From Candidatus Jettenia sp. AMX2 (GTDB taxonomy: Bacteria > Planctomycetota > Brocadiia > Brocadiales > Brocadiaceae), in the NCBI GenBank assembly GCA_030583665.1, contig CP129469.1, forward strand, positions 2,781,043-2,845,042: a stretch of 64,000 nt of DNA, read 5' to 3'. The translations under genes and the position numbers were made by a program. The notes below the pieces were generated by a model. It made no database searches, was not told the origin of the DNA, and saw nothing but the letters and a program-made list of their open reading frames with translations. Below are positions 8,230 through 59,305 of this stretch, in pieces. How positions within the stretch are numbered: the stretch's first letter is position 1; every line of letters starts with the position of its first letter.

Positions 8230-8269
8230 ATTTGTACTCCTTCCTGTAAAAGACCGATTAATCAAACAT

Positions 8270-8289: not shown

Positions 8290-8331
8290 TGAAAGCCGGG
8301 AAAAGTACCTGAACCCGTACGAATTTTGGGA

Positions 8332-8404
8332 ATTGGCAACCTGGCAATCTTCGCTGAAGACCCATGGCTTTGCGTCCTAACCTCACGGTTAGTTTGCCTT
8401 TTTC
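8332..8404 (-). promoter_or_regulatory. Cyclic-di-GMP-I (GEMM-I) riboswitch aptamer
   Basis: On the minus strand the order is GGCAAAC, stem TAACC, GNRA loop GTGA, stem GGTTA, then GGACGCAAAGCC, the P2 arm GGGTCTTC..GAAGAT and the closing TGCCAGGTTGCC. These are the conserved blocks of the GEMM-I aptamer, including the GNRA tetraloop and the ACGCAAAGCC core that contact c-di-GMP. The aptamer ends about 100 bases before the start of the giant secreted protein, in the same direction. Control of matrix or adhesin genes by c-di-GMP is the classical role. Whether it turns expression on or off cannot be read directly. Confidence 0.92.
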
Positions 8405-8594
8405 AAATCTGTTAATGTGCTTCTTTTATCTTGTGAGTACCTTTATTGCATGTACTGATGCCTCCTTCTTTATCAGAGTTTTTTCTGTTTTGTAATCACT
8501 CATTAACCATTATCGGTACGATGTTAAAAATGTTTACAAAAAGATTTAAATTACCTGAATGGAGAATTTCCCTTATCCCATATATCCATTTTCC

Positions 8595-10539: not shown

Positions 10540-10740
10540 CAAATGAAATTTGGGAACAAGCAGGAATGACAAAAACCCAATGCTCCAAACTTTACGTAAA
10601 CCTTATCTAATCAATGTCTTACGGTTGTGCATTTTGAAAAACAAGCACAAAAAAACAAGAAGTTTATGGATAGTAGTACGAAGTTTACGAAGAACACGAA
10701 GAAGGACATAATTTTATGGAATTTGATACATGAGATATGT
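10540..10740 (+). repeat. Dispersed repeat B, right part
   Basis: Contains the core CTCCAAACTTTACGTAAACC, then CTTACGGTTGTGCATTTTGA and ATGGATAGTAGTAC, also present near 34.3 kb (inverted), 52.25 kb and 59.0 kb. A short open frame covers it, but its reading frame is not kept between copies, so it is treated as non-coding. A lone GGGTGGGCACCACCCAC hairpin of the GTAGGG family follows at about 10756-10775. Confidence 0.7.
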
Positions 10741-27965: not shown

Positions 27966-30271
27966 ATGAAAAAATTGAAATACATAGCCAGTATCCTGCT
28001 GATGACCGCTATCCTGTTGGTGAGTGGCAACACTGTGCTACTTTCCGACCAAATTCAAAACGAAGAAGTTACCGAACTTCCTGAAATGGTCGTACTGGGT
28101 GAAAGAAGTCAGGATGGCCACTTCATAGAACCAACTCCCGTGGCACCTCGCGTCACAGTTACTCCAGCAGAGATTGCGGCTGTTAATGTAGTTAATCCTT
28201 CCGATATCTTTAAATACATGTCCAGTGTGAATTTCAGAAAACGGTTCATCGGTGACTCCAATATCCCGGTCGCTATCCGTGCAAACAACGAGCAGATGAT
28301 TGGCCGGGTGCTGGTATATGTGGACGACCTCCTGATTAGCAACTTCCTTGGCGGACACTCTGCCGGAGCACGACTTTTCATGGTGGCACCGCAGGAAATT
28401 GTCGGCGCGGACATCATGTATGGGCCGTATTCCGCTATGTATCCCGGTAACTCCATCGGCGGAGTTATTACAATTCATACGCGAATGCCGGAAACCTTCG
28501 AGGTCCATACAAGTAGTGGGTTTTTCGTCCAGGAATTCAAAGATTACGGTACGGACGACACCTTTCTGGGATACAAATTTGACGCCTCTGTCGGAGATAA
28601 GCTCGGGAGGTTTGGTTATTTTGTTCATTATCGTCATTTGGAGAATGAGGCCCCACCGCAATCGTTTCGCGCTGTAACAAATCCCCAGGCGGCTCAGCCG
28701 GGAGACCCTATCGTTTCCGGTGCCTTTCGCGGGAAACAGACGCGACCGGAGCTGATCGTATTGTTTATGGAAGTATTGGGCCCCGGCAGGTAGTTGATGA
28801 TCTTGTTAAGGTAAAGCTCAGCTATGATCTTGCTGACAACTGGACAGCTATCGGTATGTTTGGTTACCTGAATAAGCGTGAAGAAGTGGTGGAGCCGGAA
28901 ACGTATTTACGGGACACAAATGGCAACCCTGTTTATGCCGGTAACGTCGATTTCCAGGGACGTAGGGTTAACGTCTTCTTCCAGGGTGCTGACAAAACAT
29001 TCCTTGAAGACTTCCATTACGGACTTACGCTAAATGGAAGGATTGGCGATGCCTGGAGGCTGACCACGACCGGGTCGTTCTACGATCTAACCGGTACCCG
29101 TCCGCGTTCCGGTAACGTAGATGCTGCTGGCAGCGCTCCGGCAACTGGCATGGTTACCCGTCAGGACGGTACCGGTTGGTTTACCTACGACATCAAAATA
29201 GCACACGAATCCGAGGACAGACCGCTCTGGCTGGGCCAGAGAAGTATTTTCGGTTATCATTTCGATAACTACTTCCGTCGGGAAGTTACTCATAATGCAG
29301 CGGACTGGCGTCGTGAGATTCTGACTACCATAAATACGATCAGTGCTGGCAAGACTATGACCCATGCGCTATTTCTTGAAAATACATGGCTGTTTGCTGA
29401 CGATCAATGGGAGCTTACGCTGGGTGGCCGGCAGGAATTCTGGAAGGCCTACGACGGATTTCTGTTGCGTGGTGACAACAGGGGCCGGTTTGATAGCCGT
29501 ACGGATGAATACTTTTCTCCGAAAGCATCTCTCGCGTGGTTTCCCACTAAAGATTGGGAAGCTCGCTTTTCCACCGGTTTGGCAAAACGATTTCCGATGG
29601 TGGATGAGCTGTTTCTGGCAAATTTTGATAATTTTGGCCGATTTGATCCCGATACGTTCGATCCAAACCTCAAACCGGAAAAGTCATTCTCGAGGAATCT
29701 CTCGGTAATACGCGGTTTTGAGAAGGGACGCATCATAGCCAGTATCTTTAACGAAGACATTGACGACAGCATCCTCCGGCAACCGAATGCCTTTTCCGGT
29801 GTTACGCACTATCAGAATGTTGACAAGGTGCGTAACTGGGGTGGAGAGCTGGCATTTGAGAGCCACAGATTGTTTCTGGAAGACCTGAGCTTTTATGCCA
29901 ACATTTCCTATGTTGATGCAAAAATTGTCAGGAACAGTGGTTTCCCGGAGACGAAAGGCAACCGCATGCCACAAATTCCAAAATGGCGTGTCAATTCCTT
30001 CCTGACGTATCATGTGACAGAACAGTTCGATTGGTCCTTTGGTATGCGCTACGCAAGCGACATGTTCCACCAGCTTGATAATGCCGATGGTGGCCGCGGC
30101 GGAATGGGTTTTACCGACAGTTATCTGGTCTTTGACACCAAACTTGCATATAAAATTGGCAAAGGATTCAGTGCATCTTTCGGTGTTGATAACCTGACCG
30201 GGGAGACTTACTACATCAGCCATCCATACCCCGGGAGAACTTACCTGTTTGACCTGAACTGGAAGTTATAG
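27966..30271 (+). pseudogene. TonB-dependent outer-membrane receptor, frameshifted
   Basis: Two open frames (27966-28793 and 28856-30271) join into one receptor of about 768 residues. The first has a signal peptide, a TonB-box-like LPEMVVLGE and the plug domain (VYVDDLLISN, MYGPYSAMYPGNSIGGVITI). The second holds the barrel and ends YLFDLNWKL. In the second frame the missing link reads TDATGADRIVYGS..., which continues the first frame if one A is restored to the AAA run near 28734-28736. The natural substrate would be a metal chelate, given the neighbours. The lesion may be a real mutation or an assembly error. Confidence 0.85.
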
Positions 30272-30752
30272 AAACGTTAGTTATTTCAATATTGCATAAA
30301 GTATTTCATTTAAGACATAGCAATAGAACAAGCTTTCAGATTAAATTCAGTGTATATAAATTTTATAACATAGATAACGTTAATGCTTTAAATAAGAAAC
30401 ACTATCTCATTTATTCTAAGGAATAAATTTTGCTTGTTGTAGTCGGGAATGAAACAACATTTGCATGCAATAGATACCTGCTAGCCTTTATACTTCGGGG
30501 AGGCAGTATTATGTAGGGTGGGCAACGCCCACCAAAAATAAACTAAACATTCCCCTCCCTTGATGGGAGGGGCCGGGGGAGGGTGACAGAACTTGGAACT
30601 GTTCTTTTCTTTCACCCCCACCTTACCTCCCCCATCAATGGGAGGAATACAGCAAAACGGTAATTGGCAGGCGGTGCCTGCCCTACTGGCTTTTCGCACA
30701 CGGATCAATAATAGGTAGGGTGGTAGACAACACCCACCAAAAATAAACAGCT
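30272..30752. repeat. Intergenic region with a GTAGGG composite foldback element
   Basis: The element runs from a hairpin starting GTAGGGTGGGC at 30513 to one ending GCCTGCCCTAC at 30686. Inside are the arms CCCCTCCCTTGATGGGAGGG and CTCCCCCATCAATGGGAGG, themselves inverted. A further degenerate left end lies at 30714-30738. The remaining sequence is AT-rich with no gene. It may terminate the receptor transcript. Confidence 0.7.
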
Positions 30753-31190
30753 ATGAGTAAAATAAACAAGGTTATCGCCTGTATTCAAATCGTCATTTTT
30801 CTGAGCCTTATGCTATGCAGCAGTGGTGTCACCACCATGAATTCACTCAGAAAGCCGGATGAATTTCCGTGTAAGGATCATGACTGCGGCTGCAAATCGG
30901 CAGATGATTGCAGAACGAACTGTTGCTGTTTTCCACAGGGAAATCACCCGGGACATTATCATAGTGCAAAGAAACAGAAAAGCAGCCTTCAGTCATTCAT
31001 AAGCAGCCTTAAATGTAAGTCAGGCAGCGCAGCAATGGTGTTAATAAACACGGAATTCAAATGTATTATGGAAGATTATTTTGTAATTCCCCACATAACA
31101 TTTTTATGTTTTCTTGCCAGCGATACCCTGACCCGTCTTCGTGAAGTCATGGTATCACCTCCCGAAAAACCTCCGCGTTATCCCGCATAA
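30753..31190 (+). CDS. Small Cys-rich secreted protein
   Basis: 145 residues. An N-terminal signal or anchor helix is followed by a Cys cluster (PCKDHDCGCKSADDCRTNCC with one further Cys), then HPGHYHSAKK. Similar PC..H.CGC..A..C...CCC proteins recur in planctomycetes and proteobacteria with no known role. Cys and His density suggests binding of a soft metal or assembly of disulfides. The TonB receptor gene follows after 435 bases. There is no clear ribosome site. Confidence 0.6.
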   Translation: MSKINKVIACIQIVIFLSLMLCSSGVTTMNSLRKPDEFPCKDHDCGCKSADDCRTNCCCFPQGNHPGHYHSAKKQKSSLQSFISSLKCKSGSAAMVLINTEFKCIMEDYFVIPHITFLCFLASDTLTRLREVMVSPPEKPPRYPA

Positions 31191-31625
31191 AGTCCAGTCT
31201 GCAAAGAGAGTAAACGTTAAAAAAGCCTTCATTTGGTACCAACCGGAAGCAGTCTTTCCGCAGACGGTGTCCACCGTGCACTTGTTTCTCTTGTGTGCGG
31301 TGCCCACTGTACAGGATGACTGCTTGTTTGGCTCGTTTCCTGAAATCGGGTTCACTCTGTAGCTTATGTTTCGGCGGACGATGCCTCCCATGCATGTGTT
31401 TCAGGCAGACGGTACACGCCATACAGGAAGGTTGCTTTTTCAGCATGTTTACTAAATGTTTGAGACAATTAGCACGTTACGGTAACAGGATAAGACAGAA
31501 CAACAGGCATTTTGGCTAATCACGGAGATACTCCGTCTGTATTTTCTGCTCTATCCTGTATCACCGGGGCTTAAAAATGTGAGATAAACAGACAATTTTA
31601 GAAAACAAAGATACAGGAGGAGGGG
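31191..31625. other. Intergenic region before the second TonB receptor
   Basis: No convincing gene. A minus-strand frame (31147-31446) is Cys/His/Arg-rich but lacks a ribosome site and is probably chance. A short palindrome GTTACGGTAAC (31476-31486) lies about 140 bases before the receptor and could be an operator. No cobalamin-riboswitch B12 box was found. Confidence 0.4.
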
Positions 31626-33866
31626 ATGGAGAACAAAGCCCTGTTTGCATACGGAGCGCCTTCAAAAGCGGAAAAGAAGCGGAATATGGCTGGCTCTGCC
31701 GCAACAAGGACATGGTATCTTCTGATACTATTGTTATCTGTATTGCTTTCTTGCAGTGTCTTAGTGGCGAAAGAAATAAGGCCTGAAGAGGTTACTGCTG
31801 CAACGGAAAGCAAAGAAACTGCAGGAAAAAAACCGGCAGGCACAAACACTGCAAAGAAAGAGGACGTAAGGCTTGAAGAGGTTGTTATTACTGCAACAAG
31901 GACGGAAAGGACTACAGAAGAGATACCTGCAAGCGTAAGCACTGTAACAAAAGAAGACATAAAAAACACAAGGATGTTCAATCTGAGAGAGGCGCTTACC
32001 GGCATTCCCGGCGTACAGGCGGAAACAAGAAACGGGGCATACGATGCGAGGCTGATCATCAGGGGCGCAGGATTAAAGGCACGGTTTGGCATCAGGGAGA
32101 TAATGGTATTGCTTGACGGGGTTCCGATAACAGACCCCGATGGGATGACAAGGCTCGATTTTGTTGACCCACAGCTTGTTGAGAGGATTGATATTGTAAA
32201 GGGACCGAACTCCACCCTTTACGGGGCAAATGCTGTTGGCGGTGTTATCAATATTATCACAAAGAGCCCCTTTGAAGAGTTGAAATCCGTAAAAGCAGGC
32301 TACGGGAATTATAACGCCCAGATGTACAACGTCATCTATGGAAATCACATTGGCAATACCTATTTCACCTTTGCAGGAAGCAGGCGTTCCACAGACTCAT
32401 GGAGGGAATGGAATGAATTTACCACAAATCAGGGCAGCCTCAAGATAGGGCATATGTTTGATACCCGTACTACGCTTGAGGCGAATATCAGTTTAACACA
32501 GGCTGATCTGCAGCTTGCGGGAACGCTTACGAAGGACCAGTTCACGAGCGATATCACACAGCTAACCTCAGACCCATGGAGGCATATGGGGCGGTACAGC
32601 GAGATATTGTATTCGAGCCTTAAGTTTGAGAAGGAAATAGACAATATACGGATCAAACCACTGGTGTATTTTCAGACATGGGACCACTTCCACCCGGTAA
32701 CCGGGCTTATTAATGATGGAGGTTCGAACGTCTATGGCGCCGACATCCAGACGGATATCATTCACAGCATTGCAGGGATCAGAGGTGTTCTGACCGCAGG
32801 CGTGACAGGCCAGATGGATAAGTCAAGCGGGGATAAATTTACCTACAGGGATTTTGTTACCGGCGCAGGAGGAAGGATCCTTCATACCACTTCAGATGCA
32901 AAAGGTGACCTTGCTGAAACCGGCAAAGACACTGCAACCAAATGGGGTATCTATGTTCAGGAATCATTAAGGCCCTCTGACAGATGGATTGTAGACCTCG
33001 GCATACGATATGACCAGGTAAGGTTCGATATCGACACGGAAAGGTTTATGGCATTTAACTGGGGCGCTGGCAGATATGTAGATAAACAGGAGACGATCGA
33101 CGTAGAAAGGACCTTTGAATATGTCAGCCCCAGAATCGGCGTTGTTTATAAGCTGAGCAGTATCTTTAACCTGTACGGAAACATATCGACAGGCTTTCAG
33201 ACCCCCCAGGCATCGGAGATAAGCCTGAATCCGGATTTAGACCCTTCAAAGACCTACAATTACGAGACGGGTTTGAAGGCACGGTTTGAGGGTGGCCACG
33301 GTTTCGACCTTTCGTTATTCCATATGACGGTAAAGGACGATATCGTCCAGACAATCGAAACGGGCAACATATCTTCTTACAGTAATGCAGGAAAATCAAG
33401 GAAAAGAGGTGTGGAATTCTCCGGAAACGTTCAGACCTTACCTGGCTTGTTTCACGGTGTATCATACGCTTACAGCGACTTCCGGTTTACTGAATTTATT
33501 GAGCCGGTAAGGGAGGGCGCGGCTTTTGTCTTTCATGACAGAAGCGGTAATAGATTCCCGTATATTCCGAAACACCAATACGGATTTTTTACCGATTACC
33601 GGCATCCATCTGGTATCAGGTTCAGGATTGATACAAATACCTGGGGCAAATACTATGTGGATAATGCAAATTCAGAGACCTTCAGTGGATACGATTTTCT
33701 CACCAATGTCCTTGTTGGATACGAACGGAAAAATCTGGATATAACCTTCGATGTATACAACGTATTCGACATGAGGTATGCAATGGAGGTGACAAAGGAC
33801 ACCGATTTAAGATTCAGGCCAGGAGCACCTTTGACTATGATGATAAGGTTAACATATAAGTTTTAA
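31626..33866 (+). CDS. TonB-dependent outer-membrane receptor
   Basis: 746 residues, intact. GGAGGAGGGG precedes the ATG. A signal segment (about 35-55) is followed by a Lys/Glu-rich linker, the TonB box LEEVVITATRTER and a plug domain of about 130 residues with LLDGVPITDP and TLYGANAVGGVINIITK. The 22-strand-type barrel follows, ending with the C-terminal Phe (LTYKF) that outer-membrane insertion needs. It imports a scarce metal chelate or cofactor using TonB energy. The substrate is unknown; the Cys-rich protein upstream and the redox operon downstream are its only context. Confidence 0.93.
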   Translation: MENKALFAYGAPSKAEKKRNMAGSAATRTWYLLILLLSVLLSCSVLVAKEIRPEEVTAATESKETAGKKPAGTNTAKKEDVRLEEVVITATRTERTTEEIPASVSTVTKEDIKNTRMFNLREALTGIPGVQAETRNGAYDARLIIRGAGLKARFGIREIMVLLDGVPITDPDGMTRLDFVDPQLVERIDIVKGPNSTLYGANAVGGVINIITKSPFEELKSVKAGYGNYNAQMYNVIYGNHIGNTYFTFAGSRRSTDSWREWNEFTTNQGSLKIGHMFDTRTTLEANISLTQADLQLAGTLTKDQFTSDITQLTSDPWRHMGRYSEILYSSLKFEKEIDNIRIKPLVYFQTWDHFHPVTGLINDGGSNVYGADIQTDIIHSIAGIRGVLTAGVTGQMDKSSGDKFTYRDFVTGAGGRILHTTSDAKGDLAETGKDTATKWGIYVQESLRPSDRWIVDLGIRYDQVRFDIDTERFMAFNWGAGRYVDKQETIDVERTFEYVSPRIGVVYKLSSIFNLYGNISTGFQTPQASEISLNPDLDPSKTYNYETGLKARFEGGHGFDLSLFHMTVKDDIVQTIETGNISSYSNAGKSRKRGVEFSGNVQTLPGLFHGVSYAYSDFRFTEFIEPVREGAAFVFHDRSGNRFPYIPKHQYGFFTDYRHPSGIRFRIDTNTWGKYYVDNANSETFSGYDFLTNVLVGYERKNLDITFDVYNVFDMRYAMEVTKDTDLRFRPGAPLTMMIRLTYKF

Positions 33867-34892
33867 GTGCACGGCAAATGTTTGTAAAACACAACCCCCC
33901 TGCCCCCTTTAATAAGTGGGATTTTTTCAAGTCCCCCTTAACAAAGGGGGATTCAGGGGGTTGTGTTTGCATAGTATAACAATACTTGAAATTAAAAACA
34001 TTGAATTATCGGGACCTAGCCAGTAAGCATATTTTCCGGTGGGAAGCATCCACCTCACATGGGCGAAACATTCCCCACCTTTGACGGGAGAAGATGGGGA
34101 GGGTGATAAAACATGGATCTGCTCTTTTCCTTCACCCCCACCTTACCTCCCCCATCAATGGGGAGGAATACAGCAAAACGGTAATTGGCAGGCGGAGCCT
34201 GCCCTACATAAAATAACGTGTTTTAGCAACACAAATAACTCGATGGCGACGAAGAGAAAGCTGAGAAACCGAATCTATAAAATCCTGTCCTTCTTCGTAC
34301 TACTATCCATCAATTTCTTGTTTTTTTGCATGTTTTTCAAAATACATAACCGTAAGGCAATGATCAGATAAGGCTTACGTAAAGTTTTGGGCATTGAGTT
34401 TTTTGTCATTTGAAATTGTTTCGTATTTCGATATTCGTATTTCGAATTTGGTTGCGCCAAAGGCTGCGCCAAGCCCGAAGGGCTGACATGATTATAGTAA
34501 ATGAACAAGCAAAAACCAACAACCCCGAAGGGGTGGCATGATGGTAAGATGATCGTGGGTTTTCTATGTCACCCCTTCGGGGCTAGAAATTTTTTGTATG
34601 ACTTTTGCTATAATCATGACATCCCTTCGGGATTAGAAAACAAAAAATAAATCGTAATAGTTCATCGAAAAGGTGCAAAGTACGCATTTGAAATTGTTCC
34701 GAAATCCGCAATCCGAAATTCGAATTTGGTTGCGGCCAAAGGCCGCGCCAGGTGTTTCGTGGCAATTTTGGCAGGTGGGATGTAGGGTGGGCACTGCCCA
34801 CCAAAAAAATATGCAGCGCAATTGAACAAAATGGTAGCTGGCAGGCGGTGCCTGCCCTACTGACTGTACTTGAAAAATGAAAAGGAGAATAC
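33867..34892. repeat. 1-kb repeat-rich intergenic region
   Basis: In order: a TCCCCCTTT foldback (33887-33968) just after the receptor stop, a GTAGGG-family composite (about 34040-34207), inverted repeat B (about 34276-34480), a foldback with ends CCCGAAGGG..GACATGATTATAG and CTATAATCATGACATCCC (about 34480-34640), an inverted partial repeat B (about 34645-34770) and a minimal 79-bp GTAGGG element (34782-34860). No gene. At least four families are stacked here. Confidence 0.75.
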
Positions 34893-35906
34893 ATGCAACA
34901 TTTTTTGATTATAATGACAATTCTGTTTCATATCCTTTTTCCTCTGCCCTCTTTTGCGGGGACAAGTTCTGAAAGGGATTCCGGAGGCATGGTCAGGCCC
35001 TCCTCCCCTGCAGAAGCCATGTATCTTTCAGAAAATCCCCCCACAGCCCATTACCACGGCCACGGGGAACGTCGCAATGGCAGGAGAGACGGCGGCACAG
35101 GAAATCACTCTGAACACAGGGCTACACCGGTAAAGAAGATTTACCTTAATATACCTGACCTGTCTGACAATGCAGAGGCATACGTAATGCGGCCCGACGG
35201 CACAATAACAGAGGGTATAGTAAACCACTACGAGGGTATGTGGAGCGTTACCTTTGATACGAAACCGATGGATGGCTCCATGGACGGGATTTTTAATGTG
35301 TATGTAGTGGACAAACAGGTCGTTGGCAATACACTCCTCATAATGGTCGCAAAGATGCATGTAATAAATCATAGCTGCGGCTGGGGGCATAAGTTTAAAT
35401 TTGACAAAGAACGGCAGAGGCCAAAGCATTTTGATACTATTCCCCTTGAAATAGTGGGATACGAACTCTGGGATAAAAACTTCCACATAAAGACAACTTC
35501 AGGCGATAACCTTGTCTTCCTGGTCTTGCACAACGGCAGTCCGGCAGAAGCAGTAACAATGGGGATAAAGACCCAAAGCGAATGGATTAAAACTTTTCAA
35601 ACGGGAAATGACGGAAAGGCATCGGTTCAACTGATAAGGGACTATTACCCGGAAAGGTGGAGTGATTTCAATGCAAGGAAGCGGGGCAACCTGCTCGTTA
35701 CAGCAGAATATGACCTTGACGAAAGCGGAACATTTGAAGGTATCCCTTATACCAGCGTAAAACTGGTTTCCACATTTCCATGGAGATACCGGCCGCAGCG
35801 CAGGGAATATACTTCATATGCTTATGGTTTAGGTATCGCTGCACTGGTCGCTGTTGTATCCGGCGTCTGCATCTATACCCGCAGAATGAGAAACAAAAGA
35901 TTTTAG
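34893..35906 (+). CDS. Secreted His-rich protein with C-terminal membrane anchor
   Basis: 337 residues. GGAG lies five bases before the ATG. A signal peptide ends near SFAG, and an unusual His/Arg/Gly stretch follows (HYHGHGERRNGRRDGGTGNH, about 50-70), a likely metal-binding tail. Two beta-sandwich DUF4198-like parts follow (IYLNIPDLSDNAEAYVMRPD; VGYELWDKNFHIKTTSGDNL), then a single C-terminal helix and a basic tail. It is the first gene of the polyferredoxin/double-cubane operon and resembles the NikK/NikM type of periplasmic metal-binding protein. No exact family name can be given with certainty. Confidence 0.7.
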   Translation: MQHFLIIMTILFHILFPLPSFAGTSSERDSGGMVRPSSPAEAMYLSENPPTAHYHGHGERRNGRRDGGTGNHSEHRATPVKKIYLNIPDLSDNAEAYVMRPDGTITEGIVNHYEGMWSVTFDTKPMDGSMDGIFNVYVVDKQVVGNTLLIMVAKMHVINHSCGWGHKFKFDKERQRPKHFDTIPLEIVGYELWDKNFHIKTTSGDNLVFLVLHNGSPAEAVTMGIKTQSEWIKTFQTGNDGKASVQLIRDYYPERWSDFNARKRGNLLVTAEYDLDESGTFEGIPYTSVKLVSTFPWRYRPQRREYTSYAYGLGIAALVAVVSGVCIYTRRMRNKRF

Positions 35907-35920
35907 AGGAAATATACGCT

Positions 35921-36895
35921 ATGAAAAGAATAAGACACTTTATTAACAACACGGATATAAACCGGTTCAGGTTTTATTTTCAGATAATCTCCTTTGCAGT
36001 ATTAATCTACGGAGGATATTTCGCTATCAACATAAGCAATAATATGCCAACCTTTGTATGTGTCTTTGCTGAAAACAGAGGTGGCACATGCTATTTATGG
36101 CCGCTTCAGCATCAGGTCAATACCCCCGTCAGAGAACTTTTGGGCGGAAGGGGAATCGGTATCCTTACCGGACTTGCCACGTTCTTTATACTCTTTATCC
36201 TGTTTAACAAGGCCTGGTGCGGATTTGTATGCCCCCTTGGTTCTGTTCAGGACTGGATAACAAAGGTGCGGGCAAGGCTTGGCATAAGGAACAGTACCTA
36301 TTCCGAAACCGTATTTAGAAAACTGAAGACGATCAAGTATATCGTTTTAATCCTCCTGATCCTTTTACCGTTAGGGGTCAGCAACCTGGGGTTGCCATAT
36401 GACCTGGTAACATCCTATTGTATGATATGCCCCGCCAGGACCATTCTTCCGCTCTTTTCAGCAGACACAAGCCAGCTTGTCGCCGACTTCAGTTCAAAGA
36501 CCATGGTAGTTCTCACAGGTCTCGGGATGGCTGTCACAGGCGCATTCTTTACCGGCGCCTTTATAAAAAAACGGTTCTACTGCTTTTACTGCCCGATGAG
36601 CGCCCTTCACTACGTATTTTCCAAGACATCGCTCCTGAGGATGACAAAGGACGGCTCAAGATGTACAAGATGCGGCAACTGCTACAGGGTTTGTGATATG
36701 GGGATAAGGGAGATAGCGGATGATGTAAAAAGCAGGAATATTGTCAAGGATGACTGCATGATGTGCTTTAAATGTGTTGCTGCATGTCCCGAAGATGCCT
36801 GCCTGGAAGTAAGGTTTATTTGCCTGCCTGTGTACAGTTCTACAGAAGACGGCTTTTTTAAGAGAATGGAAAGGAAGTGCAGGAATGGAAATTGA
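35921..36895 (+). CDS. NapH/CcoG-like membrane polyferredoxin
   Basis: 324 residues with about five transmembrane helices. Cytoplasmic Cys motifs CGFVCPLGS, YCMICPA and FYCPMSA resemble the NapH/RnfC-type CxxxCP pairs. The C-terminal domain has two classical [4Fe-4S] sites, CTRCGNCYRVCDMG and CMMCFKCVAACPEDA. It would pass electrons from the quinone pool or periplasm to a cytoplasmic acceptor. Starts 14 bases after the secreted-protein gene with AGAGGA; its stop overlaps the next start by 11 bases. In this context the natural acceptor is the [4Fe-4S] activator encoded downstream (inference). Confidence 0.85.
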   Translation: MKRIRHFINNTDINRFRFYFQIISFAVLIYGGYFAINISNNMPTFVCVFAENRGGTCYLWPLQHQVNTPVRELLGGRGIGILTGLATFFILFILFNKAWCGFVCPLGSVQDWITKVRARLGIRNSTYSETVFRKLKTIKYIVLILLILLPLGVSNLGLPYDLVTSYCMICPARTILPLFSADTSQLVADFSSKTMVVLTGLGMAVTGAFFTGAFIKKRFYCFYCPMSALHYVFSKTSLLRMTKDGSRCTRCGNCYRVCDMGIREIADDVKSRNIVKDDCMMCFKCVAACPEDACLEVRFICLPVYSSTEDGFFKRMERKCRNGN

Positions 36896-38336
36896 AAGAT
36901 TTGAAAGAATAAAAAAGACAACAGCTATTCACCTTGCAATGGAGGCAAAGGAGACGCTGAAAAAAATAACAGATGATTTCCCGGACAATCCGGATGCAAT
37001 GGGGTATTTTTATGAACTGTTCCATAATCTCTATTGCAACGAAGCATCCTCCGGCAGAGATGCAGCAGGTTATGCCGCTTCCCGGCATGACCGTGAAACA
37101 CAGGCATCCTTGCCACAAAGGCAGGGTACTCCCCGGAGGGAAAGGCTTCAGGGCCAGGCATTACAGGATACCCATGATCCCCGGCCATCCCGGTTACAGC
37201 CTTTGGGAACAGGCATGCCGGAGAGTTGCAAGCCCGGGACAAAAAAAATTATCGGAACCATGTGCCTGCAGGTGCCTGATGAGCTTATCTGTGCGGCCGG
37301 AGCGATATCGTTAAGACTCTGTGGCGGCGCCTATACCTATGACCAGCGGGGCGCTGAATTCATGCCGGCAAAATCATGCCCCCTCATGAAGGCAACCATG
37401 GGAACGCTGCACACCAATCAGGCATTATTCACGGATTTGCTGAGTGCAATCGTTATCCCGACAACCTGCGATCAGAAAAAAAAGTCCGTTGACATGCTGC
37501 AGGACATGGGATTTACCATATTCCCCCTTGAGATGCCTTCTGTAAAAGACACAGAAGAGGCACGGGATTACTGGCAGAATTCTGTTAAAAAATTTGTATT
37601 GTGGCTTGAGCAGATAACAGGAAACAGGATTACCAGAAAAAGCCTGTATGATTCCATATTGAAAATAAACAGGTCACGGGCAGAATTCAGAAGGTTTTAC
37701 AACCTCAGAAAAAGTGCACCGTCCGTCATATACGGAAAAGACGCATTCCTTGTTGCAAATGCTTACTTTTTTGATGATAAGGAACAATGGACTGATGCCC
37801 TGAAAAGGCTCAACAACGAACTGGAAGACAGGGTTTCCGGAGGCATATCCGTTGTAAACAAACATGCGCCGAGGATCCTTTTTACCGGCTCACCAGCCAT
37901 CTTCCCCAACTTTAAGCTGCCTTTGATCATAGAGATGTCAGGCGGCGTAGTGGTGACAGACGAGGTTTGCTCATCGTCGCGCCTTTTATATGACTCCGTA
38001 ATTTTCGACGAAGCGAATCTTTACGATATGATACCTGCCGTTGCAGACCGGTATCTGAAACCATGCACCTGTCCGTGTTTTGTGAAAAATGAAGACAGAA
38101 AGAGGAAACTGCTGGATATGGCAAAGGGCTTTGGCATCGACGGCGTTGTGTATCAGGCGTTTTCAGGATGTTATCTCTATGAGATGGAACACAAAGGCAT
38201 TGGAGGCGCACTTGAAACAGCAGGGATTCCCGTTCTTTATATTGAAACGGATTACAGTCCGGAAGACACGGGACAGTTAACCACAAGGGTTGAGGCTTTT
38301 ATAGAGTCTATAAAAGTGAGGAAGAGGAGATCATGA
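36885..38336 (+). CDS. Double-cubane cluster protein (2-hydroxyacyl-CoA dehydratase D family)
   Basis: 483 residues. The chain follows YjiM/DCCP order: GTMCLQVPDELICAAGA, RLCGG, KSCPLMKATMG, PTTCDQKKKS, the EFRRFYNL helix, PRILFTGSPA, DEVCSSSR, KPCTCPC..NEDR, SGCYLYEMEHK and the ending ETDYSPEDTGQLTTRVEAF. These Cys positions fit an [8Fe-9S] double cubane. The known Carboxydothermus DCCP reduces small molecules such as acetylene, azide and hydrazine at very low potential. Residues about 53-115 form a Pro/Arg/Gln-rich insertion that close relatives lack. It overlaps the activator gene by four bases (ATGA). The physiological substrate is unknown. Confidence 0.85.
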   Translation: MEIERFERIKKTTAIHLAMEAKETLKKITDDFPDNPDAMGYFYELFHNLYCNEASSGRDAAGYAASRHDRETQASLPQRQGTPRRERLQGQALQDTHDPRPSRLQPLGTGMPESCKPGTKKIIGTMCLQVPDELICAAGAISLRLCGGAYTYDQRGAEFMPAKSCPLMKATMGTLHTNQALFTDLLSAIVIPTTCDQKKKSVDMLQDMGFTIFPLEMPSVKDTEEARDYWQNSVKKFVLWLEQITGNRITRKSLYDSILKINRSRAEFRRFYNLRKSAPSVIYGKDAFLVANAYFFDDKEQWTDALKRLNNELEDRVSGGISVVNKHAPRILFTGSPAIFPNFKLPLIIEMSGGVVVTDEVCSSSRLLYDSVIFDEANLYDMIPAVADRYLKPCTCPCFVKNEDRKRKLLDMAKGFGIDGVVYQAFSGCYLYEMEHKGIGGALETAGIPVLYIETDYSPEDTGQLTTRVEAFIESIKVRKRRS

Positions 38337-39154
38337 GCGAAAAATACTTTGCGGGGATTGACATCGGATCGACAGCCATAAAAATCGTCCTGGTAAACGA
38401 ATCGGGTGAAATAGCTGCGCATCAGACCTCCCCCACAGGCTGTCACTTTCACAGAAACACGCTGAACAGTTTCAATACGCTGCTTGAGAAGACCGGAATA
38501 AAAAGAGAAGAGGTCGTTTACATTACATCCACCGGTTACGGCCGGAAGCTTTTTAAGGAAACTGACGAGTCAATAAGTGAAATCACGGCAAACGCCGCGG
38601 GGGCAAGGGAAATTGGCAGGGATTACGGAACCGTACGGACAATTATCAATATCGGGGGACAGGACTCAAAGGTAATCTGCATCGATGAAGCAGGCCATGT
38701 AAAAAACTTTGCCATGAATGACAAATGTGCCGCAGGCACAGGGAGATTCCTTGAGATGACTGCAAGGAATCTTGATGTGGAGGTAGACGAACTCGGGGCG
38801 TTGCACCTGCAGGCAAAAGGAACCCCCCTTCCCATCAACAGCACCTGTACAGTATTTGCCGAGTCCGAAATCATCAGCATCCTGGCAAACGGACATGAGA
38901 AGGAGGATATTGTTGCAGGTGTCCACTATTCCATAGCTAAAAGGATTGTACGCCTTGCAAAACGGACAGGCATCAATGATATGGTCTTTTTTGACGGTGG
39001 CCCTGCACTGAACAAAGGGCTTGTTGCGGCAATGGAAGACGAGTTGATGAGGAGGATTGTAGTACCTGAGATACCCCAGATTACCACGGCATTTGGTGCG
39101 GCGGTTATTGCCAGGGATGCGTTCTGCGCAGGAGGGGAAAAGATTTATGCATGA
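38333..39154 (+). CDS. ATP-dependent activator of the double-cubane protein (BadF/HgdC family)
   Basis: 273 residues, ASKHA-fold ATPase. It shows FAGIDIGSTAIKIVLV (phosphate 1), INIGGQDSKVICID (phosphate 2), the cluster-binding NDKCAAGTGRFLEM and CTVFAESEIISI Cys residues, and FFDGGPALNKGL (adenosine). Two subunits hold one [4Fe-4S] cluster and fire electrons at about -1 V-type driving force into the partner dehydratase or double-cubane protein upon ATP hydrolysis. It is translationally coupled to the partner upstream, as in DCCP/DCCP-R and YjiM/YjiL pairs. The stop lies inside the next start region. Confidence 0.9.
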   Translation: MSEKYFAGIDIGSTAIKIVLVNESGEIAAHQTSPTGCHFHRNTLNSFNTLLEKTGIKREEVVYITSTGYGRKLFKETDESISEITANAAGAREIGRDYGTVRTIINIGGQDSKVICIDEAGHVKNFAMNDKCAAGTGRFLEMTARNLDVEVDELGALHLQAKGTPLPINSTCTVFAESEIISILANGHEKEDIVAGVHYSIAKRIVRLAKRTGINDMVFFDGGPALNKGLVAAMEDELMRRIVVPEIPQITTAFGAAVIARDAFCAGGEKIYA

Positions 39155-39758
39155 CGCTGCTAGCTTGTTTTTTATGGGACTGCTTTACGGAACAACCGTC
39201 TGCAGCCTCACCTGCCTCCCCTATCTTGGCCTCTATCTTTTAAGCACCGGCAGGGGATTTACCGATGGCGTGAAATCATCGCTTTTATTCCTGTCCGGAA
39301 AGCTCATCTGCTATACATTTGCCGGAGGACTTTCAGCGTATCTCGGAAGTATCCTGATGCCGGAAGAAAGCATATTTGCAAAACAAATCATGGGAATCGC
39401 TATTATCGCCTTTGGCCTTTCTATCTTTTTGACGGGCAGGAACGGGCATTGCAGCAGGATACAGGGAACGGGCAAAACTATTACCCTGTTTATCACAGGT
39501 GTATCAACGAGCCTGATACCGTGTCCTCCCCTTATTACAATGCTGCTGCTTGCTGCAAAGAGCGGCTCTTTCGTTTCCGGAGCCACGTATGGTATGGTTT
39601 ATGGACTTGGGATAGCCATATCACCACTCATCATTGCCTGCGGTGGATTATCATTAATCTCAAAAACAGTTAAGAAAGAGGCCGGAGGCATTATGCCTTA
39701 TCTGCAGGGCATTTCTGCCGTAATGATAGTAATAATGGGTGTGAAAATATTGATGTAA
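39147..39758 (+). CDS. DsbD/UreH-like six-helix membrane protein
   Basis: 203 residues with about six transmembrane helices. GGAGGGG lies nine bases before the ATG, which overlaps the activator gene by eight bases. The family mark is the paired CSLTCLPYLGLYLL near the N-terminus and SLIPCPPLITMLLL in the second half, the C...CxP motifs of CcdA/DsbD and UreH/SulP-like transporters. It may move reductant across the membrane or export/import a metal. A diverged copy of its last 30 codons lies at 51990-52090. Confidence 0.8.
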   Translation: MHDAASLFFMGLLYGTTVCSLTCLPYLGLYLLSTGRGFTDGVKSSLLFLSGKLICYTFAGGLSAYLGSILMPEESIFAKQIMGIAIIAFGLSIFLTGRNGHCSRIQGTGKTITLFITGVSTSLIPCPPLITMLLLAAKSGSFVSGATYGMVYGLGIAISPLIIACGGLSLISKTVKKEAGGIMPYLQGISAVMIVIMGVKILM

Positions 39759-39899: not shown

Positions 39900-42800
39900 A
39901 TGATGTCTGAACAGGAAATGCTGTTCTTTTTGAAAAACCAGAAACTCTTCTCAAACAACTACCTCGAACACAGGCTCCAATCAACCTCTTTATGGAATGC
40001 AGACAATGAAAAGGTTCGCACGGCATTTGAGAATATAAAGGATGCTTATAGATCAACCAGATCATTAAAGCTCGGTCCGGGAGAGGAGGCAAACCTTGAA
40101 GATAAATTTATAAGGCCGGTACTTACATCTCTTGATTACGAATGGGACGTCCAGCCAACAACCCAGAGAGGTGCAAAAAAGAAACGGCCTGACTACGCAC
40201 TATTTAAAGACAATGATTCCTATAAAGAAGCCCGCAAGGAAAAAGATAATTTCAGGTACTTTTATTCCTATTCCCTTACTATCCTGGAAGCAAAATACTG
40301 GGGTAGAAGCCTGAACGATACCGATCCCAAAGATATCCTCGATACCCGTGATCCCACAGCCCAAATAGTAAAATACCTTGACGATGTCTACTATGCCTCT
40401 CAGAGCCGTATTCAATGGGCAATATTGACAAATGGGAAGGTATGGCGTCTCTTTTACTACCGTGCCGCCTCGCGTTCCGGGAATTATTATGAAGTGGATT
40501 TAGAGGAGATTATCAATTGCAATAATCCTGACACCTTCAAATACTTTTACCTCTTCTTCTCAAAAGATGCCTTTATTTCTGATCCAGTAACAGGAAAGAC
40601 ATGGCTTGACCAGCATATTAAGGGCAGTGAAGATTATGCTGCAAGGGTCAGCGAAAACCTTAAAAACCTTATATTCGATAAGATCTTTGAGGGTTTAGCG
40701 GAAGGCTTTATCGAATATCGTTGCAACGAAAAGCATATCAAAAAAGAAACTGATGAGGATTTAAAAGAAATATTCAACGGCTGTCTCACCCTCCTTTACC
40801 GGCTCTTATTCTTGTTATATGCAGAATCAAGGGCGCTTTTGCCTGTAAATGATCAGGACCGCTATTACAAAAAGAGCCTGAAAAGATTAAAGGAAGACAT
40901 TGCTAATGAGCTTGAAATAACTATCTTTGAGGGTATGAGTCATCAAACCTATGATTATTGGTCACGCCTTGAGTCCCTTTGCAGGATCATAGAGAGAGGC
41001 GACAAGGCATTAAACATTCCTGTTTATAATGGAGGCCTTTTTGAAACACCGCTTGAAAGTTTTTTAGCGGCCAATAAAATATCCGATCCATATCTTGCCG
41101 AGGCAATTGCACTTCTCACCATAGACCAGCAAGGTGAGTATACGCCAGGCCAAAAACCCTTCATTGATTATTCATCCCTAGACGTCCGCCATCTGGGTAA
41201 TATTTACGAAGGGCTTCTTGAGTTCCATATCCGGATTGCAGATGAGCCTATGGTTGAGATCAAAGAAGGCAGCAAATTACTTTGGAAAAAGGAATCGGAG
41301 ATTGATGCAACTACCAGGATATACAGGAGAAAAGAGAAAGGCGGGATTTACATAGAAAACTCAAAGCATGAGCGTAAGGCCACAGGTTCTTATTACACAC
41401 CCCATTATATTGTCGAATATATTGTGAAGAATACCGTAGGCCCGGTACTGGAAACACGATTTCAAAGGGCACATGAAATCCTTTCTGAATTAGAAGCGCT
41501 GTACAGAAAGCAGCAAAGACAGCTAAAGAAACTAAAAGACTGGAAGTATTGGGAGCATTTGGGAGAACCATTAGGGACGCATATTGACGAAATCCAAAAA
41601 TTAGAAGAAGGGCTTTTTGAAACGGTATTTGACGTTAAGGTACTTGACCCCGCTATGGGGAGTGGTCATTTTCTCGTTCATACCGTCGATTTTATAACAG
41701 ACAAGGTCATAGCCTTTCTTGCCAATTTTCCCGAAAACCCGGTAATAAGAAAGATGGAGAATTTGAAGCATGAAATACTTGAAGGGATAAAGCGGCAAGG
41801 GGTAAGCATAGATGAAAGCAAACTTACAGAAGTAAATCTTACGAAGCGAACGGTAATGAAACGGTGTATCTACGGTGTAGATCTGAATGCGATGGCCGTT
41901 GAGCTTACAAAACTATCATTATGGCTCGATTCCTTTACCCTCGGCGCACCGCTTTCATTTTTGGATCACCATCTGAAGTGTGGTAATTCACTGATAGGTT
42001 CAAATTTAGAAACGCTTAGAAACGCAACAGAAAAGAAGTTGTTTCGTATAAGCCTGGAACCCTTAAATAGAGCCATCAGAAATATGCTCTTTGTGTCCAG
42101 CCTTTCAGATGCAACATATCAGCAGGTAAAAGATTCTGAACGGAAATACAGAGATGCGGATAAAAGCATCATTGGATATAGAATACTCCTCGATATACTT
42201 GTCTCTGAACATTTTGGAGTAAAAGAGGCAAAGATATTTTTACCTGAAGTAAGTAGTATAATAGACCTGGATAACCTTAAAAGGTCTATTGACTCATTGC
42301 ACAAAAAGGATAGAAAAACAATTTCATCTATCGAGAGAATAGCAAAGGGAAAACGGTTTTTCCACTGGGAAATTGAATTTCCAGAGGTTTTCTTTGAGCG
42401 TGTTGGTTCACGGGAACAAAAAGTAGAGAGGAAAGAGAATCCTGGGTTTGATTGTGTAATAGGCAATCCACCGTATATAGGATTTCACGGCTTTGAAGAA
42501 ATAAAATTTTACCTTAAGCAAACATATCAATCTTGTTCCGGTAAATATGATATTTATATACCATTCATTGAACTATTTTTAAGGATTTTAAGGAAGCATG
42601 GTAAAGGCAGCTATATTTGTCCAAGTGGGTTTATGAAAAGAGACTATGGTAAGCATCTGCGTATTTTACTGAATCATAATGCAATGCTGGAAATACTACA
42701 TGATTTTAGGGATTATCAGGTATTTGAAGGTGCTACAAATTATACATGTATTTTTGTCTTTTCAAACAATCCCGTATTTTCCAATTATAATTTTAAGGCT

Positions 42801-44069
42801 TCTTTTGGTAATGACCTACATTCACAAAAATTTACTATTAACACGGAATATACACTATCCGAAGAAGCTTGGAATATAACTACAGATAATCTTTTAATGA
42901 AGGTAAAATCTTCAGGAAGAACTATACCTTTAAAAGAAATTGCTTCAGTAATTGCAGAGGGGATAGTGACTGGCTGCAATGATGTTTTTGTTCTCAAAAA
43001 CAATAGCTTTGACAACTCAATTCTTGCAGAAAACGGAGTTATAAGAAAAGCTCTTAAGGGGGAAACGACAGACCGGTATGAGATTAAATGGGATGATACA
43101 TATCTTATTTACCCTTACAAGCTTGATGTAAATAAGACGATACCTCTTTCCGAGGGAGAGCTGAAAAAATACCCCAATACTTATCAATATTTATTAGACA
43201 AGAGAAGTAAGCTCCTGGGTAGAGATTATTTTGATAATTCATCAAAATTTTGGTTCGAACTTTGGAATCAAAGAGATTTGGCACGTCAGTCCAGTCGTAA
43301 GATTGTTGTACAGGAAAATTCTGCAAAAAATGAGTTTGTTATTGCTAACGGTGATTACTTTTACCTTGATACATGTTGTGGAATTACGATAAAAGCAGAA
43401 AGTAATCTCAGCGATTTATATATTTTGGCCCTGTTAAATTCCAATCTGCTAGATTTTATTTTTAAGCAAATCACTGTACCAAAAGCTGGTGGGCATTATA
43501 TTCACAAACCCATGTTTTTAGAGCGGCTTCCTATTGCCCGTATCTTTTTTACAACTCCTAATGAAGAACGAAAAAAAGAGGTTAAAGATGCGATAAGTTT
43601 TTACAACAACCAGGATAAAGTGAATATTCAAAAATGGATAGATCGAGAATTAAAGGAAAAAAGAAACGATACAATTCATGATCTCCTTGCCTATCTTGCT
43701 GAAGAAATGATTAAAATGAACGAAAAGAAAAATAGGGAAATCAAAGGTTTCCTGAAATGGCTTGAACGTGAAATCGGCTCAGAGATCGATGATCTTTCAA
43801 ACAAGACCGCTATAAAGGAATATCATGAACACAGCTATAATCAACTCATTGAAATCTTAAAGAGGAATAGAAGTAAGCTATCAATAGACCCATCAGACCG
43901 GAAGACTCAAGAAAAACTTGAGGATCAATTTACCCAAAGCATCTCAATCCTTGAACCACTTAAAACCAAAATTAAAGCTACGGATGATTTGATAGATGAA
44001 ATAGTTTACAAGCTGTATGGATTAACCGAAGAAGAGATTAAGATTGTGAAAGGTGAAGTATCTGCATAA
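39900..44069 (+). CDS. Type IIG restriction-modification enzyme (Eco57I-like)
   Basis: 1,389 residues in one chain. The N-terminal PD-(D/E)xK nuclease is visible as RPDYALF (about 97) and ILEAKYWG (about 131). A helical connector follows. The N6-adenine methyltransferase has KATGSYYTPHYI, motif I DPAMGSGHF (about 582) and motif IV NPPYIGF (about 856). The C-terminal third is the target-recognition domain with TaqI-like features, then a coiled-coil rich tail. Such enzymes cut and methylate DNA from the same polypeptide and need no separate methylase. The region is AT-rich compared with the flanking operons, suggesting transfer. Recognition sequence is unknown. Confidence 0.9.
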   Translation: MMSEQEMLFFLKNQKLFSNNYLEHRLQSTSLWNADNEKVRTAFENIKDAYRSTRSLKLGPGEEANLEDKFIRPVLTSLDYEWDVQPTTQRGAKKKRPDYALFKDNDSYKEARKEKDNFRYFYSYSLTILEAKYWGRSLNDTDPKDILDTRDPTAQIVKYLDDVYYASQSRIQWAILTNGKVWRLFYYRAASRSGNYYEVDLEEIINCNNPDTFKYFYLFFSKDAFISDPVTGKTWLDQHIKGSEDYAARVSENLKNLIFDKIFEGLAEGFIEYRCNEKHIKKETDEDLKEIFNGCLTLLYRLLFLLYAESRALLPVNDQDRYYKKSLKRLKEDIANELEITIFEGMSHQTYDYWSRLESLCRIIERGDKALNIPVYNGGLFETPLESFLAANKISDPYLAEAIALLTIDQQGEYTPGQKPFIDYSSLDVRHLGNIYEGLLEFHIRIADEPMVEIKEGSKLLWKKESEIDATTRIYRRKEKGGIYIENSKHERKATGSYYTPHYIVEYIVKNTVGPVLETRFQRAHEILSELEALYRKQQRQLKKLKDWKYWEHLGEPLGTHIDEIQKLEEGLFETVFDVKVLDPAMGSGHFLVHTVDFITDKVIAFLANFPENPVIRKMENLKHEILEGIKRQGVSIDESKLTEVNLTKRTVMKRCIYGVDLNAMAVELTKLSLWLDSFTLGAPLSFLDHHLKCGNSLIGSNLETLRNATEKKLFRISLEPLNRAIRNMLFVSSLSDATYQQVKDSERKYRDADKSIIGYRILLDILVSEHFGVKEAKIFLPEVSSIIDLDNLKRSIDSLHKKDRKTISSIERIAKGKRFFHWEIEFPEVFFERVGSREQKVERKENPGFDCVIGNPPYIGFHGFEEIKFYLKQTYQSCSGKYDIYIPFIELFLRILRKHGKGSYICPSGFMKRDYGKHLRILLNHNAMLEILHDFRDYQVFEGATNYTCIFVFSNNPVFSNYNFKASFGNDLHSQKFTINTEYTLSEEAWNITTDNLLMKVKSSGRTIPLKEIASVIAEGIVTGCNDVFVLKNNSFDNSILAENGVIRKALKGETTDRYEIKWDDTYLIYPYKLDVNKTIPLSEGELKKYPNTYQYLLDKRSKLLGRDYFDNSSKFWFELWNQRDLARQSSRKIVVQENSAKNEFVIANGDYFYLDTCCGITIKAESNLSDLYILALLNSNLLDFIFKQITVPKAGGHYIHKPMFLERLPIARIFFTTPNEERKKEVKDAISFYNNQDKVNIQKWIDRELKEKRNDTIHDLLAYLAEEMIKMNEKKNREIKGFLKWLEREIGSEIDDLSNKTAIKEYHEHSYNQLIEILKRNRSKLSIDPSDRKTQEKLEDQFTQSISILEPLKTKIKATDDLIDEIVYKLYGLTEEEIKIVKGEVSA

Positions 44070-51989: not shown

Positions 51990-52090
51990 CAAAAGTCAGG
52001 CTAAGAAAGAGGCAGGGGGATTTTTGCCTTATGTGCAGGGCATTTCAGCCGTAATGATCATATTAATGGGTGTGAAGTTATTGATGTAAA
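51990..52090 (+). pseudogene. Fragment of a second DsbD/UreH-like gene
   Basis: Translating from about 51999 gives AKKEAGGFLPYVQGISAVMI followed by ILMGVKLLM and TAA, a diverged copy (roughly 80% at DNA level) of the last 30 codons of the gene ending at 39758. Nothing upstream matches the rest of that gene. It is therefore the 3' stump of a paralogue, and marks the right side of the island. Confidence 0.75.
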
Positions 52091-52129: not shown

Positions 52130-52385
52130 GAAACCTCAACCAAAAAGACTTACCACGAAGCACCTGACGCGGCCTTTGGCCGCAACCAAATTCGAAAAAC
52201 GAATATCGAAATACGAAACAATTTTAAATGACAAAAAACTCAATGTTCCAAACTTTATGTAAGCCTTATCTAATCAAAGTCTTACAATTGTGCAATTGTA
52301 AAAACAAGTACAAAAAACAAGAAGTTGATGGATAGTAGTACAAAGTTTACGAAGGACACGAAGAAAAACATAATTTTATGGAATT
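52130..52385 (+). repeat. Dispersed repeat B, most complete copy
   Basis: ACCACGAAGCACCTGACGCG leads into the hairpin GCGGCCTTTGGCCGC, CAACCAAATTCGAAA, then TTCCAAACTTTATGTAAGCC, the CTTACAATTGTGCAATTG variant of the core, and AGTAGTACAAAGTTTACGAAGGA. About 250 bases. It follows the UreH-like stump directly. The rest of the region to 52676 shows no gene. Confidence 0.7.
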
Positions 52386-54959: not shown

Positions 54960-55361
54960 AATTACCCTTTTCGGCGATGTAGGGTAGACACTGCCCACCA
55001 AATATGACCGTTTCTGTCATTGCGGGGAGCGAAGCGGTTGCGAGGAGCGAAAGCGACGAAGCAAACTCGGAGACTGCTTCGCTAACGCTCGCAGCAGGCT
55101 CCGCAATCTCTGTCTTTGGGATTGCTTCGGATAAGACCCTCGCAATGACCGGTGGAACAGAGGAGATAGGGTGGGCACTACACACCAAAAAAACTAAACA
55201 TTCCCCTCCCTTGATGGAAGGAGCCGGGGAGGGTGACAGAACTTGGATCTGTTCTTTTCCTTCACCCCCACCTTACCTCCCCCATCAATGGGGAGGAATA
55301 CAGCAAAACGGCAATTGGCAGGCAGTGCCTGCCTTACGTGCATCGTTTGAAAATTGAGAAA
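54960..55361. repeat. Nested repeat region: GTAGGG element interrupted by a GTCATTGCG element
   Basis: A GTAGGGTAGACACTGCC left hairpin at 54979-54999 is followed by a 134-bp element with ends GTCATTGCG and CGCAATGAC (55016-55149, interior GAGCGAAGC and GCTTCGC repeats), then a second left hairpin at 55166, the CCCTCCC..GGGAGG foldback and the right hairpin ending GCCTTAC at 55337. The order suggests one element landed near or in another. No gene. Confidence 0.7.
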
Positions 55362-58606: not shown

Positions 58607-59305
58607 TGTTCAGGACTCAGGAGATTTAACACGAAGAATATCGCGTGGCATAACATGGCCAGGAAAATTGTAACCACAAACACGAACCTCACGAAGAAAA
58701 AAACAAGGTTTTACAAACTGGTTGTAAAGGAACCACAGATAAATTAGGCCTTCAGCGACTAAAAAACACATTTTCCCTCCCTTGACGGGAGGGATTAAGG
58801 GAGGGTGATCACAGATTGTTCCTTTCACCCCCACCTAACCTCCCTGCCTGTGCTGTGCGACAGCACGCAGACAGGGGGGAGGAACTAACAGTTTGAAATT
58901 CCCATACATTTACATAGTGCGGCCTTTGGCCGCAACCAAATTCGAAATTTGAATTTCGAAATTCGAAACAATTTCAAATGACAAATACTCAAAGCTCCAA
59001 ACGACACGTAAACCTTATCTAATTAATGCCTTACGGTTATGCATTTTGAAAAACGAGCATAAAAAACAAGAAGGTGGTGGATTGTAGTACAGATTAGAAA
59101 AACAAAAACAGCGAAAAGATTGCTTCGCTATCGCTTGCAATGACGATACCACGCCAAACATTTCAGTGATTACCATCACGGTAGTATTCAATTTGGTAGT
59201 ATGCCCCGTTCGGGATTTGTGCAATTACTGAAACAGTCACATCTATAGCAAAATATGCATTACAAAACATCAGCAAAAATTTGCCGATATTAAGGCGCCG
59301 AGCAC
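58607..59305. repeat. Intergenic repeats between the radical SAM gene and thiC
   Basis: A CCCTCCCTTGACGGGAGGG foldback without GTAGGG ends (about 58767-58880) and a nearly complete repeat B (about 58917-59090, CGGCCTTTGGCCGC then CTCCAAACGACACGTAAACC) fill the region. A GATTGCTTCGCTATCGC fragment of the GTCATTGCG family ends near 59145. No gene seen. Confidence 0.65.

Follow-up and report, generated by a model that had tools for sequence, protein, structure and literature searches.

A TonB-linked double-cubane protein cassette in Candidatus Jettenia sp. AMX2 with a possible role in the reductive acquisition of metal complexes

Double-cubane cluster proteins (DCCPs) reduce acetylene, hydrazine and azide in vitro according to PMC11971306, where their biological function is stated to be unknown. 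Proteins of the DUF4198 family are described from another side: one of them binds Ni2+ at nanomolar affinity, and the genes of the family neighbour TonB receptors and NikR (PMC12537917), while the family also accompanies membrane redox proteins with a proposed role in the release of chelated metal (PMC8238504). Here, we describe a gene cassette from Candidatus Jettenia sp. AMX2 in which a DCCP stands beside a TonB receptor and a protein with a predicted DUF4198 fold. It lies in a stretch of 64,000 nucleotides of contig CP129469.1 (assembly GCA_030583665.1, positions 2,781,043 to 2,845,042), referred to below as the window. We consider the cassette to be, with a probability of roughly 0.55, a TonB-coupled reductive system, driven by ATP, through which anaerobes acquire a metal complex, and we infer its substrate, direction and reduction step from homology, gene neighbourhood and fold, on which all functional statements below are based.

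A preliminary description of this DNA, made from the letters alone, had read five tightly packed genes at 34893-39758 as a TonB-linked double-cubane reductase module. Open frames, Pfam and NCBIfam bear out its genes, spacings and domain calls. From the secreted protein to the last membrane protein (DsbD2), a gap of 14 bases is followed by overlaps of 11, 4 and 8 bases, and no frame in the cassette is broken. The genes are as follows.

30753 to 31190, plus strand: short Cys-rich secreted protein of 145 amino acids ending in PPEKPPRYPA; possible leader gene, tentative member
31626 to 33866, plus strand: TonB-dependent receptor, 746 amino acids (PF00593, PF07715)
34893 to 35906, plus strand: secreted, C-terminally anchored protein of predicted DUF4198 fold, 337 amino acids, His-rich in its N-terminal part (AlphaFold2 model)
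35921 to 36895, plus strand: NapH-like membrane polyferredoxin, 324 amino acids (Fer4_5, Fer4_10)
36885 to 38336, plus strand: DCCP, 483 amino acids (PF06050, 330 bits; NF040772)
38333 to 39154, plus strand: ATP-driven activator of the BcrAD/BadFG type, 273 amino acids (BcrAD_BadFG, TIGR00241)
39147 to 39758, plus strand, ATG start: DsbD2, a DsbD_2 or CcdA-like membrane protein, 203 amino acids (PF13386)

The grouping of these genes is not due to chance, as the remaining 13 members of the DCCP clade to which the window protein belongs have the same genes in the same order (14 sequences, support 95/99, one of them on a Sulfurovum plasmid). The neighbourhood, for whose conservation the preliminary description had proposed a survey, is common to all 14 members. 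Receptor and DUF4198-fold gene are found in 13/14, the contig of the remaining locus (L059; L numbers denote loci) being cut, and DsbD2 in 12/14. The linkage to TonB is real, since 11/14 cassettes carry ExbB-ExbD-TonB themselves. Polyferredoxin and DCCP stand together at nearly every locus, the exceptions being L065, where a second receptor lies between them, and L090, which runs off its contig.

The clade spans at least four phyla, including Nitrospirota, Desulfobacterota, Campylobacterota and that of Jettenia, and most members belong to the first two. Scanning a single genome for each species gave three close DCCP relatives, in metagenome-assembled genomes (MAGs) titled Thermodesulfovibrio, Desulfocapsa and 'Pseudomonadota bacterium', all with identical genes and order followed by ExbB, ExbD and TonB. 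The genomes searched are samples, and the profile search covered three phyla. In the phyla of the Thermodesulfovibrio MAG, the Desulfocapsa MAG and the window, a close DCCP was present in 8 of 396, 4 of 395 and 1 of 343 genomes, respectively, the last being the window genome. The cassette is absent from 32/32 sampled genomes of the same family, and a distant version occurs in only two genomes of the same order. This phylum distribution suggests that the cassette moves horizontally.

The window DCCP scores 364.3 bits against the NCBIfam double_cubane equivalog NF040772 (cut-off 350), and its closest solved structures are those of ChDCCP (7yyl/6eno). Residues C127, C165, C195, C362, C396 and C429 correspond to the six Cys columns common to ChDCCP (6ENO) and BzdN (8S02), in whose [8Fe-9S] cluster six irons are reported to be ligated by cysteine thiolates. 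These Cys are kept in 26/26 complete DCCP rows, so that at the level of sequence the Cys set fits the double cubane named in the preliminary description. The assignment as a double-cubane cluster protein with a predicted [8Fe-9S] cluster is thus supported. The adjoining activator reaches 244 bits against TIGR00241 (cut-off 125), and its cluster Cys, C132 and C172, are invariant in 14 aligned sequences. A peculiarity of the window DCCP is its linker, in which about 60 extra residues (about 54-113) are encoded in frame at 37040-37235. The insert has 60% guanine and cytosine (GC) compared with 47% for the gene and is absent from all aligned relatives. No copies were found in the window or in the few other stretches of the genome compared.

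The reading frame of the polyferredoxin opens at 35780, and its start is likely the ATG at 35921 because relatives begin at the matching MKRI.. position; the gap of 14 bases is counted from this start. The protein carries two cytosolic-type [4Fe-4S] motifs and is 57-70% identical among window-type cassettes. Since its score against the NapH model TIGR02163 (70.6 bits) lies below the cut-off of 213, its sequence marks it as NapH-like only, and it is a family of its own that is tied to DCCP. No second polyferredoxin of this kind was found in the window genome. DsbD2 matches DsbD_2 (PF13386) with 60.3 bits (cut-off 24.9) and has redox Cys in its first and a later helix (C19, C23 and C126); these and C102 are invariant. 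Its model (mean predicted local distance difference test score, pLDDT, 69) has CcdA (5vkv) as best fold match, with a probability of 1.00, a template modelling (TM) score of 0.56 and a modest E of 0.02, and nothing else stood out in the fold search. The CcdA part of the preliminary label 'CcdA/UreH-like' is supported, and with moderate confidence we take DsbD2 to be a CcdA-like thiol electron carrier.

The secreted protein, which had been described as His-rich, is indeed secreted with a His-rich N-terminal part, and the model adds a fold. Pfam gave no family for the window protein at E 0.001, DUF4198 (PF10670) included, and the homologue in L070 matches DUF4198 weakly, at 23 bits against a cut-off of 34. 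The AlphaFold2 model, built with 18 homologues (pLDDT 82), matches Zcp with Z 17.7 and Ni-bound DUF4198 (9GCB) with Z 14.6, everything else lying below 7; native and Zn-, Cu- or Co-bound Zcp structures all match at Z about 17. By its model, the protein thus has the DUF4198 fold, a periplasmic metal-binding fold. Residues H75, H160, C162, H166 and H198 are conserved. The window sequence has no His after what is likely the signal peptide; other conserved His are present. The Sulfurovum version has a second polyferredoxin-like membrane protein that carries a DUF4198-like domain fused behind it, and such a domain is therefore physically tied to membrane electron transfer.

The receptor has the plug and barrel domains of TonB receptors in Pfam, is 45-52% identical to receptors in L037, L060, L061 and L066, and finds its closest solved structures in PqqU/YncD, PhuR, FecA and BtuB. 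Cassette receptors are of two barely related types while the inner machinery is unchanged, as if different chelates were feeding one reductive core. In L037 (5442-5726), L060, L062 (4774-5151), L063 and L065 (3090-3422), and less clearly in L064, the receptor is preceded by a similar short secreted protein with a PPR, PPK or PPS ending; 26/4619 frames at large have such an ending. The protein at 30753-31190 is thus possibly a leader gene of the cassette. The Thermodesulfovibrio cassette is closely followed by a selenocysteine tRNA gene (L037 14598-14691, minus strand), perhaps by coincidence.

More distant cassettes, obtained with a polyferredoxin profile search, form a sister clade of 11 DCCPs (support 98/96). 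A cobalamin riboswitch heads the operon in six of these loci (L069, L070, L088, L092, L094 and L096), all of which fall in a subclade of 8 DCCPs (100/99). Some of these operons additionally encode CobN (L070, L094), CbiZ (L069, L096), BtuF/FecCD-type proteins (L069) or DUF2162 and DUF2149 (L070). For the sister clade there is good support for corrinoid handling, which for the window clade is no more than suggested. In the window, no cobalamin riboswitch reached the gathering threshold, and a relaxed scan of 29800-35100 gave only spurious matches to eukaryotic microRNA and small nucleolar RNA models. The window genome has four cobalamin riboswitches, all outside the cassette. One of them heads a locus with a BtuB-like receptor, CbiZ, DUF2162 and CobN (L101, G000:C1:2374000-2393900), which adjoins further B12 and cobalt transport genes.

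The mechanism that we propose would begin with import of a metal chelate into the periplasm by the receptor, where the anchored DUF4198-fold protein would bind the metal or chelate. The activator would spend ATP to charge the DCCP to a very low potential, polyferredoxin and CcdA-like protein would carry electrons through the inner membrane, and the DCCP-polyferredoxin pair would reduce the imported complex so that metal or ligand becomes usable. The conserved gene set, the DUF4198 fold, the Sulfurovum fusion, the riboswitches of the sister clade, the CcdA-like last gene and the six Cys lead us to this metal-complex reading. Together with the B12 sensors of the sister cassettes, the cassette partners suggest that the compounds handled reductively are imported metal complexes and not hydrazine, the substrate to which the preliminary description had drawn attention. 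That suggestion recalls the in vitro activities of DCCPs, azide included (PMC11971306), and the setting, an anammox genome with two matches of identical score to hydrazine synthase alpha (HZS_alpha, G000:C1:383159-383473 and 1143185-1143499). A hydrazine or azide reductase serving anammox metabolism is nevertheless highly improbable and largely excluded by the distribution, as the cassette is missing from the sampled members of the same family and resides mostly in Nitrospirota and Desulfobacterota, with Campylobacterota among its other hosts. Neither a TonB receptor nor a metal-binding protein would be needed for hydrazine.

Several results weigh against reductive metal-complex acquisition. 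None of the 14 window-type cassettes has a cobalamin riboswitch (the upstream DNA of L059 is cut off), and no metal-responsive site was found at them, so that a metal or corrinoid is only a presumed substrate for this type. Most metal chelates can be reduced without so low a potential. The window copy has no ExbB-ExbD-TonB at its end. Additionally, a narrow channel leads to the buried double cubane of BzdN (PMC11971306), and a cluster placed in this way would be out of a large chelate's direct reach. The same burial, and the view that the BzdN cluster serves as an electron transfer or storage cofactor (PMC11971306), slightly favour an outward route from activator to DCCP to polyferredoxin to the complex held by the DUF4198-fold protein. 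This direction is also slightly favoured because the Sulfurovum version fuses a DUF4198-like domain to a polyferredoxin, because no ABC importer is encoded in window-type cassettes, and because polyferredoxin and DCCP stay paired while the activator can be absent. It is not adjacent in L069, L070 and L088, where the polyferredoxin-DCCP core is constant, and electrons could thus equally run outward. Outward flow has little better than even odds over inward flow to a cytoplasmic substrate, for which the preliminary description had drawn a path from polyferredoxin to activator to double cubane.

In an inward variant, the polyferredoxin would charge the activator and this the DCCP for a cytoplasmic small-molecule reaction, with receptor and DUF4198-fold protein only supplying a needed metal. 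Activators are normally charged by ferredoxins, and the two cytosolic-type motifs of the polyferredoxin could dock to the activator. The lack of an adjacent activator in the three loci named above and the Sulfurovum fusion speak against this arrangement, which we regard as improbable. We also judge it improbable that the receptor imports an aromatic, quinone-like or other organic molecule for Birch-like reduction by the DCCP, as by benzoyl-CoA reductase. The DCCP is homologous to BzdN, part of a Birch-type reductase (PMC11971306), and the closest solved relative of the receptor is the pyrroloquinoline quinone (PQQ) transporter PqqU, but the operon encodes a metal-binding fold, its sister clade is under riboswitch control, and neither CoA ligase nor catabolic genes were found in window-type cassettes. 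A corrinoid-specific role would make the cassette an ATP-driven reductase that takes salvaged corrinoids towards Co(I), the window copy doing the same without riboswitch control. The riboswitches, CobN, CbiZ and BtuF/FecCD-type genes of the sister operons agree with it, as does the very low potential that reduction of Co(II) to Co(I) requires. The window-type cassettes lack the riboswitch, however, and the BtuB-like/CbiZ/CobN locus that the window genome does place under one contains no DCCP. For the window clade, such a role is unlikely.

The activity of the window copy in Jettenia is not assured because of its missing ExbB-ExbD-TonB end, the repeats between receptor and operon, and the unusual DCCP linker. 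The preliminary description had placed the operon right after the receptor; the receptor does belong to the cassette, as one of its six genes, but 1026 bases separate them. In relatives, receptor and operon genes nearly touch or overlap, unlike in the window, where 33867-34892 is filled with dispersed repeats of 85-95% identity. These recur in the window at about 10571-10683, 30576-30686, 52172-52341, 55196-55333 and 58922-59090, and elsewhere in the genome (L101, L102). The place that ExbB-ExbD-TonB takes in relatives, directly after the cassette, is occupied in the window by a large Eco57I-type restriction-modification gene of lower GC (38%; 39900-44069). Three ExbD genes are located elsewhere in the genome, which is a single contig of 3.46 Mb. 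A remnant of 89 bases at 52002-52090, 12 kb downstream, matches the DsbD2 gene at its 3' end with 86.5% identity, a hint that the cassette was once duplicated or rearranged; no ExbB-ExbD-TonB was found near the remnant. At the other end of the window, a c-di-GMP-I-GGC riboswitch (8331-8407, minus strand, 69 bits) lies just upstream of a minus-strand open reading frame of 2299 amino acids (1390-8289).

The preliminary description knew of no account linking these parts, and in the open-access literature searched likewise none was found that joins double-cubane proteins with TonB. Neither did it yield a paper joining a cobalamin riboswitch with hydroxyglutaryl-CoA dehydratase or Zcp with TonB, and for NapH or polyferredoxin with TonB and dehydratase only unrelated genome and transcriptome papers were found. 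Reductive metal acquisition by a double-cubane protein is not known to have been described before, and a first physiological role, in which the DUF4198-fold protein holds TonB-imported metal chelates or corrinoids in the periplasm and electrons of very low potential, sent outward through the polyferredoxin at the expense of ATP, reduce them, is possible but doubtful. A cassette in at least four phyla with a riboswitch-linked sister clade is nonetheless a strong genomic lead to metal-complex acquisition for double-cubane proteins. It gives DCCP a testable role, with polyferredoxin, DUF4198-fold protein and activator as partners and with corrinoids, Ni or Co chelates and metalloporphyrins as candidate substrates.

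Among known systems, the DCCP of Carboxydothermus and the ATP-driven reductase that belongs to it (6ENO, 7YYL; Jeoung and Dobbek 2018, 2022, in PMC11971306) share the family, the six Cys and the kind of activator. The characterised pair is a soluble enzyme whose physiological substrate is not known, whereas the window DCCP is linked to TonB import, to a polyferredoxin in the membrane and to a DUF4198-fold protein. Polyferredoxins of the NapH, NosR and CcoG type likewise have membrane helices with CxxxCP motifs and two C-terminal [4Fe-4S] motifs, but the cassette protein falls far below the NapH cut-off and forms a family tied to DCCP. Zcp (9MHJ and related) and the Ideonella DUF4198 protein (9GCB; PMC12537917) have the fold predicted for the secreted protein and bind transition metals, and DUF4198 genes neighbour TonB receptors. 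Compared with them, the secreted protein has conserved SEHR, HxCxWGH and NFH motifs, perhaps in place of a plain N-terminal His brace, and it has a C-terminal helix as anchor and a link to DCCP. The flavinylated PepSY-DUF2271-DUF4198 systems, proposed for reductive release of chelated metal, also combine a DUF4198 protein with an electron carrier that spans the membrane, in some cases with a TonB-family gene as well (PMC8238504); their carrier is a flavin-bound PepSY protein, while here it would be an iron-sulfur polyferredoxin with DCCP and activator. The HmuS de-chelatases of Bacteroidota (hmu operon; PMC12583661) are likewise encoded in a TonB-receptor operon and free metal reductively from a tetrapyrrole without oxygen. 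In the sister clade, L070 and L094 have a CobN-like protein of the HmuS kind beside the DCCP; window-type cassettes differ, as none contains a match to CobN. HmuS uses NADH (PMC12583661), whereas the cassette would use an ATP-driven double cubane, and if this is true, an ATP-driven electron source joins the known oxygen-free ways of freeing metals from chelators.

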